62,015 bases of DNA from Akkermansiaceae bacterium (GTDB taxonomy: Bacteria; Verrucomicrobiota; Verrucomicrobiia; Verrucomicrobiales; Akkermansiaceae). The notes beneath the pieces are model-generated. The model had not been told where the DNA came from. It searched no databases and saw nothing but the letters and a program-made list of their open reading frames with translations. The translations under genes were made by a program, and so were the position numbers. This document shows, piece by piece, positions 24,892 to 41,282 of the stretch. The stretch lies in the NCBI GenBank assembly GCA_021202525.1, contig JAJQCV010000112.1, positions 1 to 62,015 of the forward strand. Reading direction: 5' to 3'. Each line of letters starts with the position of its first letter. Within the stretch, counting starts at the first letter, position 1.

Positions 24892-24972
24892 TGTTTTCGT
24901 TTCCCTCCTTTCCGTGAGAGATTTCCGCGGTTGTTTCAACGTCTTGCGTCAGAAAGATGTCTTACAGGGATT

Positions 24973-25896
24973 ATGGAAATTCCTTCCCATTTGATCAAAC
25001 GCTGCAAGAAGTTTATTGAGCCTTACCGTGTGACGGACGGCAAGGGATTCAAATTGTCCCATCATGATCCGGGGGATTTGGGCAAGCTGGACAAGGACAG
25101 CAAGAAGGAAGCCGTCGACAAGCTGGAAAAAGGCATTGAGTTGCTGGGACAGTTGCAGGAGGTGCTTTACGCCAGCGAGTCCTATGCGCTGCTGGTGATT
25201 TTGCAGGCGATGGACAGTGCCGGCAAGGACGGGATCGTCAAGCATGTGATGGGAGGCATCAATCCCCAGGGATGTGTGGTGAGCAGTTTCAAGTATCCTT
25301 CCACTGTGGAACGGAGCCACGATTTTTTGTGGAGGTGTGTGATGCGCCTGCCGCAGAGAGGCATGATCGGCATTTTCAACCGTTCCTATTACGAGGAGGT
25401 GCTGAGCGTGCGCGTGCATCCGGAATATCTTGCGGGGGAAGGGTTTGATCCGGCCCAGGCAAGCAAGGCTTTTTGGAAGGAGAGATACAGGTCCATCAAT
25501 AACCTGGAACGCCATTTGCATGCCAATAGAACGCGGTTTGTGAAAATTTTTCTCCATCTTTCCTATGAGGAGCAGAGGAAGCGCCTTCTGGCGCGCCTGG
25601 ATACTCCCGACAAGAATTGGAAGTTTTCAGAAGGGGATATCCATGAGCGCGAATATTGGGACGGTTATCAGAAGGCTTTTGAAGAGATGATCCGGAATAC
25701 GGCCACTCCGGATGCTCCCTGGTATGTGGTTCCGGCGGACAACAAGTGGTATTCCCGTCTTGTCTGCCTGTGTGCGATTGCCAGCGCCCTGACAGACATG
25801 AAGCTGAAATATCCGCAAGTGTCCGAGGAGTTGAAGTCTTTCTTCCCCAGATTCCGGGAGGAACTGGAATATACCCCGGACAAGGACAAGAAGTAA
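24973..25896 (+). CDS. PPK2-family polyphosphate kinase / polyphosphate:nucleotide phosphotransferase
   Basis: 307 residues. The PPK2 Walker A region QAMDSAGKDG is at about 78-87, followed by the lid-side motif NRSYYEEVL, and C-terminally PWYVVPADNKWYSRL. One-domain PPK2 enzymes use polyphosphate to phosphorylate AMP, ADP or GDP in the cytosol. Which nucleotide is used cannot be told from reading alone. It starts at ATG 24973 (MEIPSHL); a longer frame from 24931 looks like non-coding lead. A second PPK2 domain, fused to Nudix, lies at 34986-36329. Confidence 0.93.
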   Translation: MEIPSHLIKRCKKFIEPYRVTDGKGFKLSHHDPGDLGKLDKDSKKEAVDKLEKGIELLGQLQEVLYASESYALLVILQAMDSAGKDGIVKHVMGGINPQGCVVSSFKYPSTVERSHDFLWRCVMRLPQRGMIGIFNRSYYEEVLSVRVHPEYLAGEGFDPAQASKAFWKERYRSINNLERHLHANRTRFVKIFLHLSYEEQRKRLLARLDTPDKNWKFSEGDIHEREYWDGYQKAFEEMIRNTATPDAPWYVVPADNKWYSRLVCLCAIASALTDMKLKYPQVSEELKSFFPRFREELEYTPDKDKK

Positions 25897-31432: not shown

Positions 31433-32092
31433 TCAGGATGACAGGCCTTTCCGGCGTACAAGGCGGCAGGCGCGTTCCACGATCTGGTGGGCGATGTGCG
31501 TTTTGGCCGCTTTTTCCAGCAGGTCCGTCCGGTCCGGATAGATGAGCAGCACTTCGTTTTCCGACGCGTCGAAGCCGATGTCCCGCCGAGAAACATCATT
31601 GGCCACGATCATGTCGCATTGCTTGCGCTCCAGTTTGCCGCGTGCATAGGATTCCACGTCGTGGGTTTCCGCCGCAAAGCCGACCAGAATGCCGCGGAAG
31701 CCGAATTCCGTGCGCATGGAGCCCAGAATGTCTTTGGTGCGCTCCAGTTCCAAAACCATGCGCTCCCCTGTTTTTTTGATTTTGCGGTCCGGTACGGAAA
31801 CGGGCCTGTAGTCCGCAACGGCGGCGCTGAGGATGGCTATGTCCGCATAGGACGCCTGGTTCTGTACGGCGTCATACATTTCCTGAGCGGTTTCCACGGG
31901 AAGGAAGTCAACGCCGTGAGGAACGTCCAGAGAAGTGGGACCGGAGATGAGCAGGACGCGGTGGCCGTCGTGGGCCGCCGCTTCCGCCAGGGAGTATCCC
32001 ATTTTGCCGGAAGAACGGTTGGTGATGTATCTTACGGGGTCAATGGCTTCTCTGGTGGGACCGGCCGTGATGAGGAAACGCATGGGCGGCAT
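31433..32092 (-). CDS. coaB: Phosphopantothenate-cysteine ligase (stand-alone CoaB)
   Basis: 219 residues, matching only the C-terminal half of bifunctional CoaBC. Landmarks are LITAGPTREAIDPVRYI, NRSSGKMGY, SAAVADY and a KIKK segment. The enzyme joins cysteine to 4'-phosphopantothenate in CoA synthesis. Its decarboxylase partner, coaC, is a separate gene at 40743-41282. ATG 32083 (MRFLITAG) is an alternative start. The gene is divergent from the cysteine desulfurase. Confidence 0.92.
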   Translation of the reverse strand: MPPMRFLITAGPTREAIDPVRYITNRSSGKMGYSLAEAAAHDGHRVLLISGPTSLDVPHGVDFLPVETAQEMYDAVQNQASYADIAILSAAVADYRPVSVPDRKIKKTGERMVLELERTKDILGSMRTEFGFRGILVGFAAETHDVESYARGKLERKQCDMIVANDVSRRDIGFDASENEVLLIYPDRTDLLEKAAKTHIAHQIVERACRLVRRKGLSS

Positions 32093-34985: not shown

Positions 34986-36329
34986 TCAATCGGGTATGGA
35001 AATGGCGGCCGGATCAAAGTTAGGGGTGGGAAAGGCAAGCTGGAGATGCCGGAGCTTTTCCACGATCAGGCGTGCAACGACAAGGTTTCTGTACCATTTG
35101 CGGTCTCCGGGGATAATGTACCAGGGGGCTTCCGGGGTGGATGTTTTTTCAATGAGGTCCTGGTAGGCAGTTTGGAATTCATCCCAGCGGTTGCGGTCGT
35201 CAAGGTCATCCATGCAGAATTTCCAAAGCTTGTCCGGATCCTGAAGCCGTGATTCCAGGCGCTTTTTCTGTTCCGCCTTGGAGATATTCAGGAAGAGCTT
35301 GATGATGGTGGTGCCTTCTTCCGCGAGCATGGATTCAAAGTCCAGCACGTGCTTGTAGCGGCGCTTCCAGACGGGGTCCGGGAAGATTTTCTTTACGCGC
35401 ACGGCGATGATGTCTTCATAATGGGAACGGTTGAAGATGGCAATCTGGCCCTTGGTCGGCACTTCCTTGTGCACGCGCCAGAGGAAGTCATGGTCCAGTT
35501 CTTCCGGGGTGGGTTTTTTAAAGGGCACCACATGCAACCCCTGCGGGTCCACGCGGGAGAAGACATGCTTGACGCAGCCGTCCTTGCCGCCGGCGTCCAT
35601 GGCCTGAAGAATGACGAGTATTTTATGCTTGTGCTGGGCAAAGAGTTTTTTCTGCAGTTCCTGCAGTTCTTCCCTCAGCTTGTCGAATTCGACCAGGGAT
35701 TCTTCCTTGGTTCCGGAGAAGAGGGATTTGTCATCCGTGGGGTAGTCCTTTAAACGCAGTTTTTTGCCCGGAGGCACCAGGTAACGGTTCATCGTATAAG
35801 AAGTTAGTGTTGAAGAGGGAGCAGGCCGTGCGACACGCTTTTCCGCAGAGGGGCGGTTGGCGGCGGGGGGCTTTCCGAAGAATTGAGTGAGGGCGTCCTT
35901 AATGACTTTTCTTTTGAATTTGGGGAACATTTCCAGCTTGATGTCCTGGAGAAGCACCCATTTTGTTTTTGCGAATTCCGGGCTGCGGTGCAGGTCCGTC
36001 TTGGGGCGGCTCGTTTTGCAGCGCACCAGAAAGTAGGTTTGTTCCTGACCCACCCAGCGGGTGATTTTACGGTGGTTGGCGGGGTATTTGTACCGCAGAC
36101 CGGGCAGGCGCGCCACAATGGTATAGTCCGAGGGGCGCAGCCCCACTTCCTCCCAGACTTCCCGTGCCAGGGCGCGTTCAATGCTTTCGTTCTTGATGAC
36201 GCCCCCCTGGGGGAAATGCCAGTAGGGATTGCGGCCGTGGTCCTTGCCCAGCAGGATATAGCCGTCGGCATCCATGATGACGGCTGCCGCGTTGATTCTC
36301 CATGTTCTGGCTGGTGAAGGAGTGTCCAT
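34986..36329 (-). CDS. Nudix hydrolase fused to PPK2 polyphosphate kinase
   Basis: 447 residues from ATG 36329. Residues about 8-155 are a Nudix domain of the RppH/ApaH-like type, with a perfect Nudix box beginning GGVIKNESIERALAREVWEE and ending VGL. A Pro/Ala/Ser-rich linker (about 155-180) leads into a PPK2 domain with QAMDAGGKDG and NRSHYED motifs, running to the end. Known: Nudix enzymes cleave NDP-X compounds including NpnN and RNA 5' ends; PPK2 uses polyphosphate to charge nucleotides. The fusion suggests linked nucleotide turnover and recharge. It is the last gene of the minus-strand envelope unit, 16 bases after the TPR gene. The frame upstream of 36329 overlaps that gene and is spurious. 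Confidence 0.88.
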   Translation of the reverse strand: MDTPSPARTWRINAAAVIMDADGYILLGKDHGRNPYWHFPQGGVIKNESIERALAREVWEEVGLRPSDYTIVARLPGLRYKYPANHRKITRWVGQEQTYFLVRCKTSRPKTDLHRSPEFAKTKWVLLQDIKLEMFPKFKRKVIKDALTQFFGKPPAANRPSAEKRVARPAPSSTLTSYTMNRYLVPPGKKLRLKDYPTDDKSLFSGTKEESLVEFDKLREELQELQKKLFAQHKHKILVILQAMDAGGKDGCVKHVFSRVDPQGLHVVPFKKPTPEELDHDFLWRVHKEVPTKGQIAIFNRSHYEDIIAVRVKKIFPDPVWKRRYKHVLDFESMLAEEGTTIIKLFLNISKAEQKKRLESRLQDPDKLWKFCMDDLDDRNRWDEFQTAYQDLIEKTSTPEAPWYIIPGDRKWYRNLVVARLIVEKLRHLQLAFPTPNFDPAAISIPD

Positions 36330-36345
36330 GACAGGGCAAAACTGC

Positions 36346-39009
36346 TTACTGGGGGGCCTGTTCCGGGGCGGGCTGCATTTCCGGCGGCTGTTCCGTTTCA
36401 GCCTGGTCCTCCTGCCAGATGAAGTGCTCCAGCTGGATGCGGCGCGCGTAGGCCGCCGCTTCCCTGGCTCTGGGGCCGGACGTTTGTGCCAGCTTTCTGG
36501 CCAGGGCCAGGGCGCCGTCCCAGTTTTGTGCCTGCCCCATGAGGCGGATGGATGCAAATCCCGCGTTATAGAACCAGTGCCAGTCCCGGCGCTTGTTGGC
36601 GGAACTGCCGCTGGGCGTGTGGACCAGGATGGAGGCATAGTCATCCAGGGCTTTTTCCTGGTCGTTCAGCCGTTCGTAAAATTGGGCCCGCTGGGTAAGG
36701 GTTTTGAATTTCCATGCCAGTCCCAGATTAGGGGTATTCAGGATTTCCGTGCACAGGTTGATGGCTTTGCGGAGGGTGTCTGAGTTGGTGTCTTCCTTGG
36801 TTACCCACGCATCCGCCTGGATGGAGAGGGCCAGCAGCCGCATGTAGCGCGGCAGCGGCTTGGAAAGCAGCTCGTCAAGCACGGCGATGCACTGGTCCGC
36901 TTTTCCCATGCGCAGGAGGACGGAGGCTTCTTCTATTTTGGCGGCCTGGGCAAATTGTGTTGTTCCCGCACCCAGTGTCTGGAAGATGTTGAGGGCCGCT
37001 TCCAGCGTGTTGACGGTGTTGCTTTGCTGTGCCGCTTTTCCTGCCAGGAAGAGGGCCGCCGCTTTCAGGGGACTGTCCGGATATTTGGAGGGGAAGGGCT
37101 GGAGCACGAGCTGGGCTTCGTGGAAGTCGCCGTTTTTGTACAGGAGTTCCCCGAGTTTGAGGTACAGGGCGTCGGCCTGTTTTCCGTCCTTGTCCAGGGC
37201 GATGGTTTGCCGGCATGCCTGGATGGCTTCCGTCCATTCCTGGAGGTTTTCCGCCAGCAGGATTTTCAAACGGCCGAGCTGCATGGACTGGTCCGGAGTG
37301 AGCTGTTCCTTTTCCAGCAGCGGGAGGGTGGATTGCACGGTCTGGATGTCCGGAGGATTGAGGTTCAGGGCCACTTCCGCCTGGTCCAGCCGCGCCTGGG
37401 TTTTCAGAGCCGGGTCTTCCGCCAGGGCCACGAAGCCGGCCAGGAGTTCCGTGGCCTCCGGGTTCATTCTTTTAGCCGCATAATGGGCCTGTTCAAAGAG
37501 GATGTGTTCCCGCAGCTTTGCAGAGCCTGCGGCTTCCCGGACCAGCGCGGCCGCGCCTTTTGCGTCGTTGGCATACAGGGCAGACAGGTTTTCATTGAAG
37601 AGCGCAGCTTCCGCCGTTTTTTCCGTGCCGCGACGGGATGCTTCACGGAAGAGTTTTTGAGCCAGGGGGTAATCTCCCTTCTGGAAGGCCAGGGCACCCT
37701 GCTGGAAGATGATTCCGGCGGATGTGCCCGGGTATTTGGAAATGAGGCGTTCCGCATCTTCCGTGCGTCCTTTTTCCAGGAGGGCCGTGATGATGTTCAG
37801 ACAGAGAGTCTGGACGGGAAGGTTCTGCGGATATTTGGCAAGGCCGTCTCCGGCAAGCTTGATGGCTCCCGCCAGGTCTCCCTTTTCCAGAAGAAGACTG
37901 CCCATGGCGTACATGGCCGCAGGCTGCCGCGTGGCGTCTTTGGAGTTCACCCAGCCAGTGAGTTTTTCCAGTGCCTGCGGGTCGGTGCGGAAGGTGTTTT
38001 CTCTCAGAAGGATGTTGAAAGCGTCCATCAGCAGGGGGGAGTCCGCCTTTCCGCCGATGAAGGTGATGAGCCGGTCTTCTCCTGTTCCGGCGGTGTGGAT
38101 GTTTTCCTCTTCCGGCTGCTGCGCACGCGCTTCTTCCTCCGCCTGCCCCGGATTGCGTTTTTCCCGGAGAATTTCCCCTTCCGCCAGGGCCACCCGTGCC
38201 AGATCACGGATTTTTGCAGGGTAGGAGGTGTTGTCCGCAATGGAAGCAAACGTTTTAATGGCTTGGTCCACATTGCCCTGGATGACGGATATTTTTCCGT
38301 CCACCAGTTCCGCATAGGGCAGAAGGATGGGTGGTTTTTCCTTGCCGGACAGGCTGTTTTTTACCTGTTCAAGGATGGCCTGCGCCTCCGTGTAGTTCTG
38401 CATGCCGGCCAGGGTGTCCGCCAGCAGGATATTGGCGGTGTGTGAAACGGAAGGAGAGTCCGTGCGGCCCAGCCTGGTCAGGGATTCCACGAGAAGCTGC
38501 CGGTCTCCGAGCTGCCGGGCCAGTTGTGCTTTCAGCTGGAAGGCGTAAACGGAGAGAGGATCGGAGTCCGGGATGGAGGAGAGTTTTTCCAGGGCCCTGG
38601 TGAAGTATCCCTTGTTGAACAGGCCCATGGCCGTCCAATAGGATTTCAGAACGGAGTCCGGCAGTTGTTCCCACAGGGCGAGGCCTTCATCCGTTTTGTG
38701 CGCGCGGATCAGGGCTTCCGCAAGGAACGGCCGGATGACGGCCTTCTGGGATTCCGGGAGGTTTTTAGTCTTCAGGCTTTCCTGAAAGTTTTTGCTGGCT
38801 TCCAGCGGGAGGTGTGCGGCCAGATCCTTCAGGCCCTGCTGGTATTTTTTGTTTTTCAATAGCGCCTGTTCGTCCTGCGACAGGGCGGAAGCGGGGGGAG
38901 GCGTGTTGCTTGACGCCGCAGAGGAGAGTCCCCCCAGGGACAGCAGGAACGCGGTGCATGCCGCCATGGCGGCGGGGATGGTGTGGTGCCTGGTGGAGGG
39001 TATTTGCAT
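36346..39009 (-). CDS. Large exported TPR-repeat protein
   Basis: 887 residues. A signal peptide covers roughly residues 10-31. Nearly all the rest is helical tandem repeats of TPR type (for example NYTEAQAILEQ, GDYPLAQKLFREASRRG, NGDFHEAQLVLQPF). A Gln/Glu/Pro-rich tail ends the protein. It is probably periplasmic or anchored at the outer membrane as a scaffold; partners are unknown. It follows the M23 gene after 14 bases and precedes Nudix-PPK2 by 16 bases, so it is in an operon. Confidence 0.87.
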   Translation of the reverse strand: MQIPSTRHHTIPAAMAACTAFLLSLGGLSSAASSNTPPPASALSQDEQALLKNKKYQQGLKDLAAHLPLEASKNFQESLKTKNLPESQKAVIRPFLAEALIRAHKTDEGLALWEQLPDSVLKSYWTAMGLFNKGYFTRALEKLSSIPDSDPLSVYAFQLKAQLARQLGDRQLLVESLTRLGRTDSPSVSHTANILLADTLAGMQNYTEAQAILEQVKNSLSGKEKPPILLPYAELVDGKISVIQGNVDQAIKTFASIADNTSYPAKIRDLARVALAEGEILREKRNPGQAEEEARAQQPEEENIHTAGTGEDRLITFIGGKADSPLLMDAFNILLRENTFRTDPQALEKLTGWVNSKDATRQPAAMYAMGSLLLEKGDLAGAIKLAGDGLAKYPQNLPVQTLCLNIITALLEKGRTEDAERLISKYPGTSAGIIFQQGALAFQKGDYPLAQKLFREASRRGTEKTAEAALFNENLSALYANDAKGAAALVREAAGSAKLREHILFEQAHYAAKRMNPEATELLAGFVALAEDPALKTQARLDQAEVALNLNPPDIQTVQSTLPLLEKEQLTPDQSMQLGRLKILLAENLQEWTEAIQACRQTIALDKDGKQADALYLKLGELLYKNGDFHEAQLVLQPFPSKYPDSPLKAAALFLAGKAAQQSNTVNTLEAALNIFQTLGAGTTQFAQAAKIEEASVLLRMGKADQCIAVLDELLSKPLPRYMRLLALSIQADAWVTKEDTNSDTLRKAINLCTEILNTPNLGLAWKFKTLTQRAQFYERLNDQEKALDDYASILVHTPSGSSANKRRDWHWFYNAGFASIRLMGQAQNWDGALALARKLAQTSGPRAREAAAYARRIQLEHFIWQEDQAETEQPPEMQPAPEQAPQ

Positions 39010-40742: not shown

Positions 40743-41282
40743 TTACGGCAGAAGGGAAAGCGTTTTTTCCACAATCAGTTCCACAGGCATCAGCTTGCCG
40801 GCTCCGGCCGCTCCGCATGCAAGGATGCCGGCTTCGGCGGGGCCGAAGATGTGGTGGCGTTCCCGCTGTTTCAGGATTTCCGTGTTTTTCCGGGTGGCGG
40901 GATGCCCCCACATGCGGACGTTCATGGCGGGACAGATCAGCACGGTGGCCTTGCAGGCCAGGTAGAGGGAGCTGAGCATGTCCGGCGCCATGCCGTGGGC
41001 AAAGTTTGCCATGGTGTTTGCCGTGGCGGGCGCCACGACCAGGAGGTCGGCGTTTTGAGCCAGCTGGATATGGGGGGGAACCCATTCCCCTTTTTCATCG
41101 TCAAAGGAGGAGAAAACGGGGTTGCGGGAGATGGTGTGGAGAGTGAGGGGCGTGACGAATTCCAGGGCCTTGGCCGTGCAGACGCAGTGCACGTCATGTC
41201 CGTGCTTGACGAGGGCGGAAGCGATGTCCGCCGCCTTGTACGCGGCAATGGAGCCGGTGACGCCTAGGATGATGCAGGCCAT
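40743..41282 (-). CDS. coaC: Phosphopantothenoylcysteine decarboxylase (stand-alone CoaC)
   Basis: 179 residues; flavoprotein HFCD family. Landmarks are ILGVTGSIAAYKAADIA, the active-site His region LTLHTISRNPV, APATANTMANFAHGMA and PAMNVRMW. It is the N-terminal half of CoaBC as a separate protein. The matching ligase gene is 8.7 kb away at 31433-32092. It starts 12 bases after a RelE-like gene. A C7 tract inside it is in frame. Confidence 0.95.
   Translation of the reverse strand: MACIILGVTGSIAAYKAADIASALVKHGHDVHCVCTAKALEFVTPLTLHTISRNPVFSSFDDEKGEWVPPHIQLAQNADLLVVAPATANTMANFAHGMAPDMLSSLYLACKATVLICPAMNVRMWGHPATRKNTEILKQRERHHIFGPAEAGILACGAAGAGKLMPVELIVEKTLSLLP

Follow-up and report, generated by a model that had tools for sequence, protein, structure and literature searches.

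A Nudix hydrolase fused to a PPK2 polyphosphate kinase in one genus of the Akkermansiaceae, and the retention of the PPK2 fold with and without its kinase motifs

The stretch of DNA analyzed here, referred to as the window, comprises 62,015 nucleotides of contig JAJQCV010000112.1 (assembly GCA_021202525.1) from an Akkermansiaceae bacterium, whose genus is probably the gut genus Akkermansia. It encodes a protein, P0001, in which a Nudix hydrolase and a PPK2 polyphosphate kinase occupy a single chain, and the question it raises is why the two are joined. A preliminary description of the locus proposed a self-contained unit that degrades alarmone-like dinucleotides or RNA 5′ ends and recycles the product, and knew of no described example. 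A search of the open-access literature likewise found no published description of a Nudix-PPK2 protein, and annotated protein databases may already list the architecture. A paper on the bile response mentions AMUC_RS00015, a NUDIX gene of A. muciniphila that may or may not encode the fusion protein. Neither half is new; the combination was fixed once in one genus, and the relatives provide a natural series of separate genes, intact fusion and fusion with an apparently dead kinase. The series poses the question of what use the PPK2 fold is to an RppH-type enzyme once ADP/ATP synthesis is gone.

Domain composition of the fusion protein

The two-domain Nudix and PPK2 fusion is confirmed. As first described, the gene translates without a break through both domains, which are separated by a linker of ~30 residues, the sole poorly conserved stretch of P0001 in the alignment of intact fusions (Table 1). 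The surrounding open reading frame has 552 codons, and the frame is also open 5′ of the ATG. ATG 36329, 16 nt downstream of the TPR gene stop, is supported as the start by conservation across 12 species, with identity still ~61% in the most distant. It is very improbable that two genes were wrongly joined or that PPK2 truly begins at an internal ATG near 35792. PPK2 genes outside the genus are separate and start near residue 179, where P0001 has an in-frame ATG, but this Met is without a counterpart in L013, L015 and other divergent members and no Shine-Dalgarno-like sequence lies 5′ of it, which led us to reject a separate PPK2 start at this position. The preliminary description had raised this start, and a stop codon in the linker of relatives, as grounds for doubt; when checked within the genus, the former was not upheld and no full-length relative carries the latter. 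Moreover, the same fusion occurs in the separate assemblies of 12 species, which rules against an annotation or assembly artefact, and a diverged form occurs in about 19 more.

Table 1 Features of the fusion gene and its upstream neighbor in the window.
Feature	Position	Strand	Remarks
TPR-repeat gene directly upstream	36346..39009	(-)	Adjoins the fusion in nearer species only
Nudix-PPK2 fusion gene P0001	34986..36329	(-)	447 aa + stop, single uninterrupted frame
Nudix domain, residues 11-145, RppH/ApnA-hydrolase type	35895..36299	(-)	Pfam PF00293 2e-19; E. coli RppH best PDB match 2.8e-15
Nudix box, residues 42-64 (GGVIKNESIERALAREVWEEVGL)	36138..36206	(-)	Intact in 30/30 fused homologues
Linker, residues about 152-179	35793..35876	(-)	Variable, predicted disordered
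Class III PPK2 domain, residues 180-447	34989..35792	(-)	PF03976 5.8e-70; TIGR03709 above cut-off; model matches 5LC9/5O6K, TMt about 0.97
PPK2 Walker A DAGGK, D245-K249	35583..35597	(-)	Lost in degenerate relatives
PPK2 Walker B RSHY (301-304) and class III signature Glu305	35415..35429	(-)	Published motif definitions
PPK2 lid region, residues about 357-379	35193..35261	(-)	Mostly deleted in degenerate relatives
C-terminal motif WYIIPGDRKWYRN, residues 403-415	35085..35123	(-)	W412-Y413-R414 kept in all degenerate relatives too

The Nudix half belongs to the Nudix superfamily, with a PF00293 score of 70.4 bits against a cut-off of 21.1. Its box, G-x5-E-x7-REVWEEVGL, is an exact match to GX5EX7REUXEEXGU and hence perfect, as had been claimed. 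The proposed type is also supported: the closest solved structure is E. coli RppH and the second best is an Ap4A hydrolase. All NCBIfam RppH equivalog models match P0001, each below its own cut-off (at best 83.6 bits against 139; 82.9 against 118). By homology, P0001 would hydrolyze a polyphosphate bridge, as found in NpnN, NpnN-capped RNA or 5′-ppp/pp RNA. The window's assembly (G000) yielded no standalone RppH-like Nudix gene, which nearly all sampled relatives have, among them G004, whose fusion is 98% identical to that of the window. Its absence reflects either an assembly gap or a loss; if it is a loss, the fusion is the sole RppH-like enzyme of G000.

The PPK2 half scores 235.9 bits against a cut-off of 22.3 with PF03976, whose match spans residues 210-427, and 363 against 247.2 with TIGR03709. 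The NCBIfam equivalog model for ADP-polyphosphate phosphotransferase, NF042973, gives 290.4 bits against 450. PPK2 enzymes are recognized by a Walker A DxxGK and a Walker B RSxY, a Glu directly after the latter marking class III (PMC11641546, PMC8776046). P0001 has DAGGK, RSHY with E305, the lid motif RLQDPDKLWKF and the C-terminal motif WYIIPGDRKWYRN, so that the motif set first reported is indeed complete, and among solved structures this half is closest to class III enzymes. An AlphaFold model shows the PPK2 domain with confidence and the linker with low confidence; the Nudix half was poorly modeled because the input alignment held no Nudix homologues. Homology thus suggests that P0001 transfers phosphate from polyphosphate (polyP) to AMP/ADP, and the presence of both activities in the one protein is plausible.

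A second class III PPK2, P0002, is encoded on the strand opposite to the fusion, ~9 kb away (24931-25896 (+)); it has an RSYYE signature and belongs to another PPK2 branch than the fused domain. The fusion gene shares its strand with neighboring CoaC-like, unknown, M23 peptidase and TPR genes, a run that is kept in nearer species and was not found around divergent fusion copies. CoaB and CoaC are often one bifunctional protein, CoaBC. In the window a CoaB-like gene (31433-32092 (-)) and a CoaC-like gene (40743-41282 (-)) are two genes ~9 kb apart that flank the fusion.

Distribution and origin of the fusion

The 59 sampled genomes of the window's genus include 12 with the intact fusion, one (G049) with an intermediate form and at least 18 in which the fused PPK2 is degenerate; in two (G034, G054) the fusion fragments are too short for classification. 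The remaining 26 are without any fusion copy. In these (for example G001, G003, G020 and G040) no PPK2 of any kind was detected, and PPK1 is present in most. PPK2 chemistry has been dispensed with across a large part of the genus.

Beyond the genus, ~100 family genomes and phylum-wide sampling yielded no fusion; the halves are separate genes there. In the family genomes PPK2 is its own open frame beginning near residue 179, with up to 68% identity to the fused domain, and an RppH-like Nudix gene lies elsewhere in the genome. In 387 phylum-wide genomes all matches with E ≤1e-70 that span both halves fall in the genus. The best 80 of 589 relatives in ~85,000 species genomes were all unfused; as not even the fusions of the window's genus appeared in this sample, rare fusions could be missed. 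On one Dormiibacterota contig a Nudix gene and a PPK2 gene lie close together, separated by another gene.

In the Nudix tree all 27 fused rows group together (100/100), to the exclusion of the standalone RppH-like clade of the genus (99/94) and of the family homologues, and within this group the degenerate copies make up a single clade (98/94). The single fused clade indicates that the domains were fused once and that the Nudix half is a diverged RppH-type paralogue. In the PPK2 tree the intact fused domains lie beside the standalone PPK2 of the family and apart from the second PPK2 of the genus; the degenerate rows sit on very long branches and their placement was not relied on. On the evidence of these trees, the fusion arose once, in the ancestor of the genus, from an RppH-type Nudix paralogue and the ordinary standalone class III PPK2 of the family. 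The genomes G090 and G081, in which a same-strand Nudix gene lies ~1 and 2.4 kb from PPK2, were considered as an operon intermediate. They provide no evidence of one, because their Nudix genes group with standalone family proteins and not with the fused clade. Separately, one genus member has a third PPK2 (L058, G044:C5:162387-163040) whose long branch joins a Phycisphaerales sequence (97/87), possibly as a result of horizontal transfer.

Degeneration of the PPK2 half in a sister clade

The Walker A DxxGK motif is present in 12 of 30 fused homologues and lost in 18, and the Nudix box and GQxQ persist in all degenerate members, FKR in most. Residue counts in the degenerate PPK2 half cover the 17 complete members, L016-L032. 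In none is the Walker A Lys retained, ten having Arg at the aligned position; D245 is kept in 3/17 and the Walker B R301 in 4/17, and the lid residues W369, K370 and F371 in 0/17. The motif pattern of an active PPK2 is thus absent from these members. Conversely, P291, L347, P407, W412, Y413 and R414 are kept in all 17. In the intermediate G049 the Walker A Lys is lost and RSxY is kept. Taken together, the kinase active site is destroyed in at least 18 of the 31 genus copies that could be classified, and probably in G049 as well. The degenerate half is still PPK2-derived: profile-profile comparison (hhalign) gives an E value of 3e-30 over 216 columns, the profile matches 5LC9 with E 1.4e-33, and Pfam PPK2 is detected in 9/11 members. 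Lost polyP metabolism was considered as the cause of kinase decay and rejected, as PPK1 is present in all degenerate carriers (partial in G030). No other intact PPK2 was found in the genomes of these carriers.

The degenerate half is under purifying selection and is not freely decaying. Its pairwise dN/dS is 0.14-0.19 in closer pairs (dS 0.14-0.72); pairs with dS >1 give 0.05-0.11, a rough estimate at that divergence. These values bear on the view that the PPK2 half is a passive passenger, the fusion having been fixed by chance, the kinase later lost and the remnant kept since its removal destabilizes the protein. The single origin of the kinase loss and the complete lack of the gene in some species agree with such a history, but a dN/dS of 0.05-0.19, residues that are invariant lineage-wide and the lack of truncation in any of the 17 complete degenerate members make it quite unlikely.

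The retained residues also bear on a role of the PPK2 half, live or dead, as a sensor, in which the binding of polyP or another polyanion would switch the Nudix enzyme. Alanine mutants of K86 and K258 of ChPPK2, which correspond to polyP contacts of FtPPK2, are markedly less active (PMC8776046). The two lysines map to K254 and K411 of P0001 (numbering checked on the 6AN9 chain), positions that are basic in 17/17 and 13/17 degenerate members, respectively; R414 is kept in all 17 and the polyP maker PPK1 is retained. However, further contacts with polyP have gone, namely the lid and the Walker B Arg (kept in 4/17), and a positive net charge is not a consistent feature of the degenerate half. That the polyP-binding cluster survives as a whole, a possibility also considered, therefore holds only in part, and the loss of the other contacts keeps the sensor hypothetical. 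A further reading, unlikely in our estimate, makes the PPK2 half a regulatory domain through which an RNA-decapping Nudix enzyme senses polyP or nucleotides; in the window's clade the ligand would still be turned over, and in the sister clade the domain would be a pure pseudokinase sensor. If true, RNA 5′-end processing would be linked directly to polyphosphate or energy status.

Recycling, a partner role and known systems

Recycling or channeling would have the Nudix half cut ApnA, NpnN caps or similar substrates to AMP/ADP, which the PPK2 half then recharges from polyP to ADP/ATP. AMP or ADP for PPK2 would come only from ApnA or cap-like substrates; for PPi, released by RppH-type cleavage of ppp-RNA, we know of no use as a PPK2 acceptor, which counts against this reading. 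Recycling is consistent with the complete active sites and strong purifying selection in the window's clade, and with published substrates: RppH cuts ApnA and NpnN-capped RNA (PMC7044304) and class III PPK2 enzymes accept AMP and ADP (PMC8776046). In addition, D306 of P0001 aligns with Asp127 of EbPPK2 (numbering read off the alignment), a residue linked to AMP preference (PMC12257356). On the other side, a second intact PPK2 lies 9 kb away in the same genome, and in at least 18 sister species the retained fusion has a dead kinase half while the genome offers no other intact PPK2. We consider recycling a possible though doubtful explanation of the fusion. The degrade-and-recycle unit of the preliminary description thus fits the window's own protein, but as an explanation of the fusion in general it finds no support, since at least 18 of 31 classifiable copies lost the kinase site yet stay joined and under purifying selection; a sister sub-clade that keeps the fusion with a dead kinase half weakens the idea of self-contained recycling.

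The explanation we favor, with a probability of roughly 0.45, is that the PPK2 half serves mainly as a built-in partner or regulator of the Nudix enzyme. A partner role is proposed because the fusion persists without kinase chemistry, which recycling does not explain. For the family as a whole, a PPK2 fold that acts physically as partner, scaffold or regulator is the most economical account. One sub-clade destroyed the kinase site while both halves remained under purifying selection, a pattern that suggests that selection keeps the Nudix enzyme with its attached PPK2 fold rather than kinase catalysis. The fold may stabilize, oligomerize, position or allosterically control the Nudix site, and members of the intact clade may additionally use it as a reporter of polyP or AMP/ADP. 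Catalysis clearly matters in the window's clade, as the kinase site is perfectly conserved there; the window's copy would thus combine real kinase activity with the partner role, and AMP recycling may be a bonus in copies with a live kinase. Within this clade recycling may even be the true function. A degenerate P-loop domain, for its part, may retain binding or reactivity of an unforeseen kind. Should the PPK2 fold act as such a partner, it would constitute a direct molecular link between polyphosphate/nucleotide metabolism and RNA 5′-end or dinucleotide turnover.

Each half has well-characterized relatives. The Nudix half aligns with E. coli RppH/NudH (PDB 4S2V, 2KDV) over its full length (residues 10-150, E 2.8e-15), and the Nudix box, FPQGG, LRYK.P, GQxQ and FKR are common to both. 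Unlike E. coli RppH, P0001 falls under every NCBIfam RppH equivalog cut-off, and the fused Nudix domain carries PPK2 and has a clade of its own, to which the standalone RppH-like gene of the genus does not belong. The PPK2 half shares ~50% identity, all motifs, the class III Glu and the same predicted fold with the PPK2 enzymes of Meiothermus ruber (5LC9) and Deinococcus radiodurans (6AQE), which are single-domain enzymes whereas the PPK2 of P0001 sits behind a Nudix domain. The proposed partnership itself resembles that of E. coli RppH and DapF, a metabolic enzyme that stimulates RppH independently of its own catalysis (PMC4227774, PMC7144940). In both cases a metabolic enzyme is the stimulator or proposed partner of an RppH-type Nudix hydrolase; DapF, however, is separate and unrelated, whereas the proposed partner here is fused and PPK2-derived. 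The retention of a dead PPK2 domain next to an active domain is known from class II two-domain PPK2 enzymes, in which it lies beside a live one (PMC8776046), as in P. aeruginosa PA3455 (PDB 3CZP), where the partner domain is another PPK2 and not a Nudix hydrolase.
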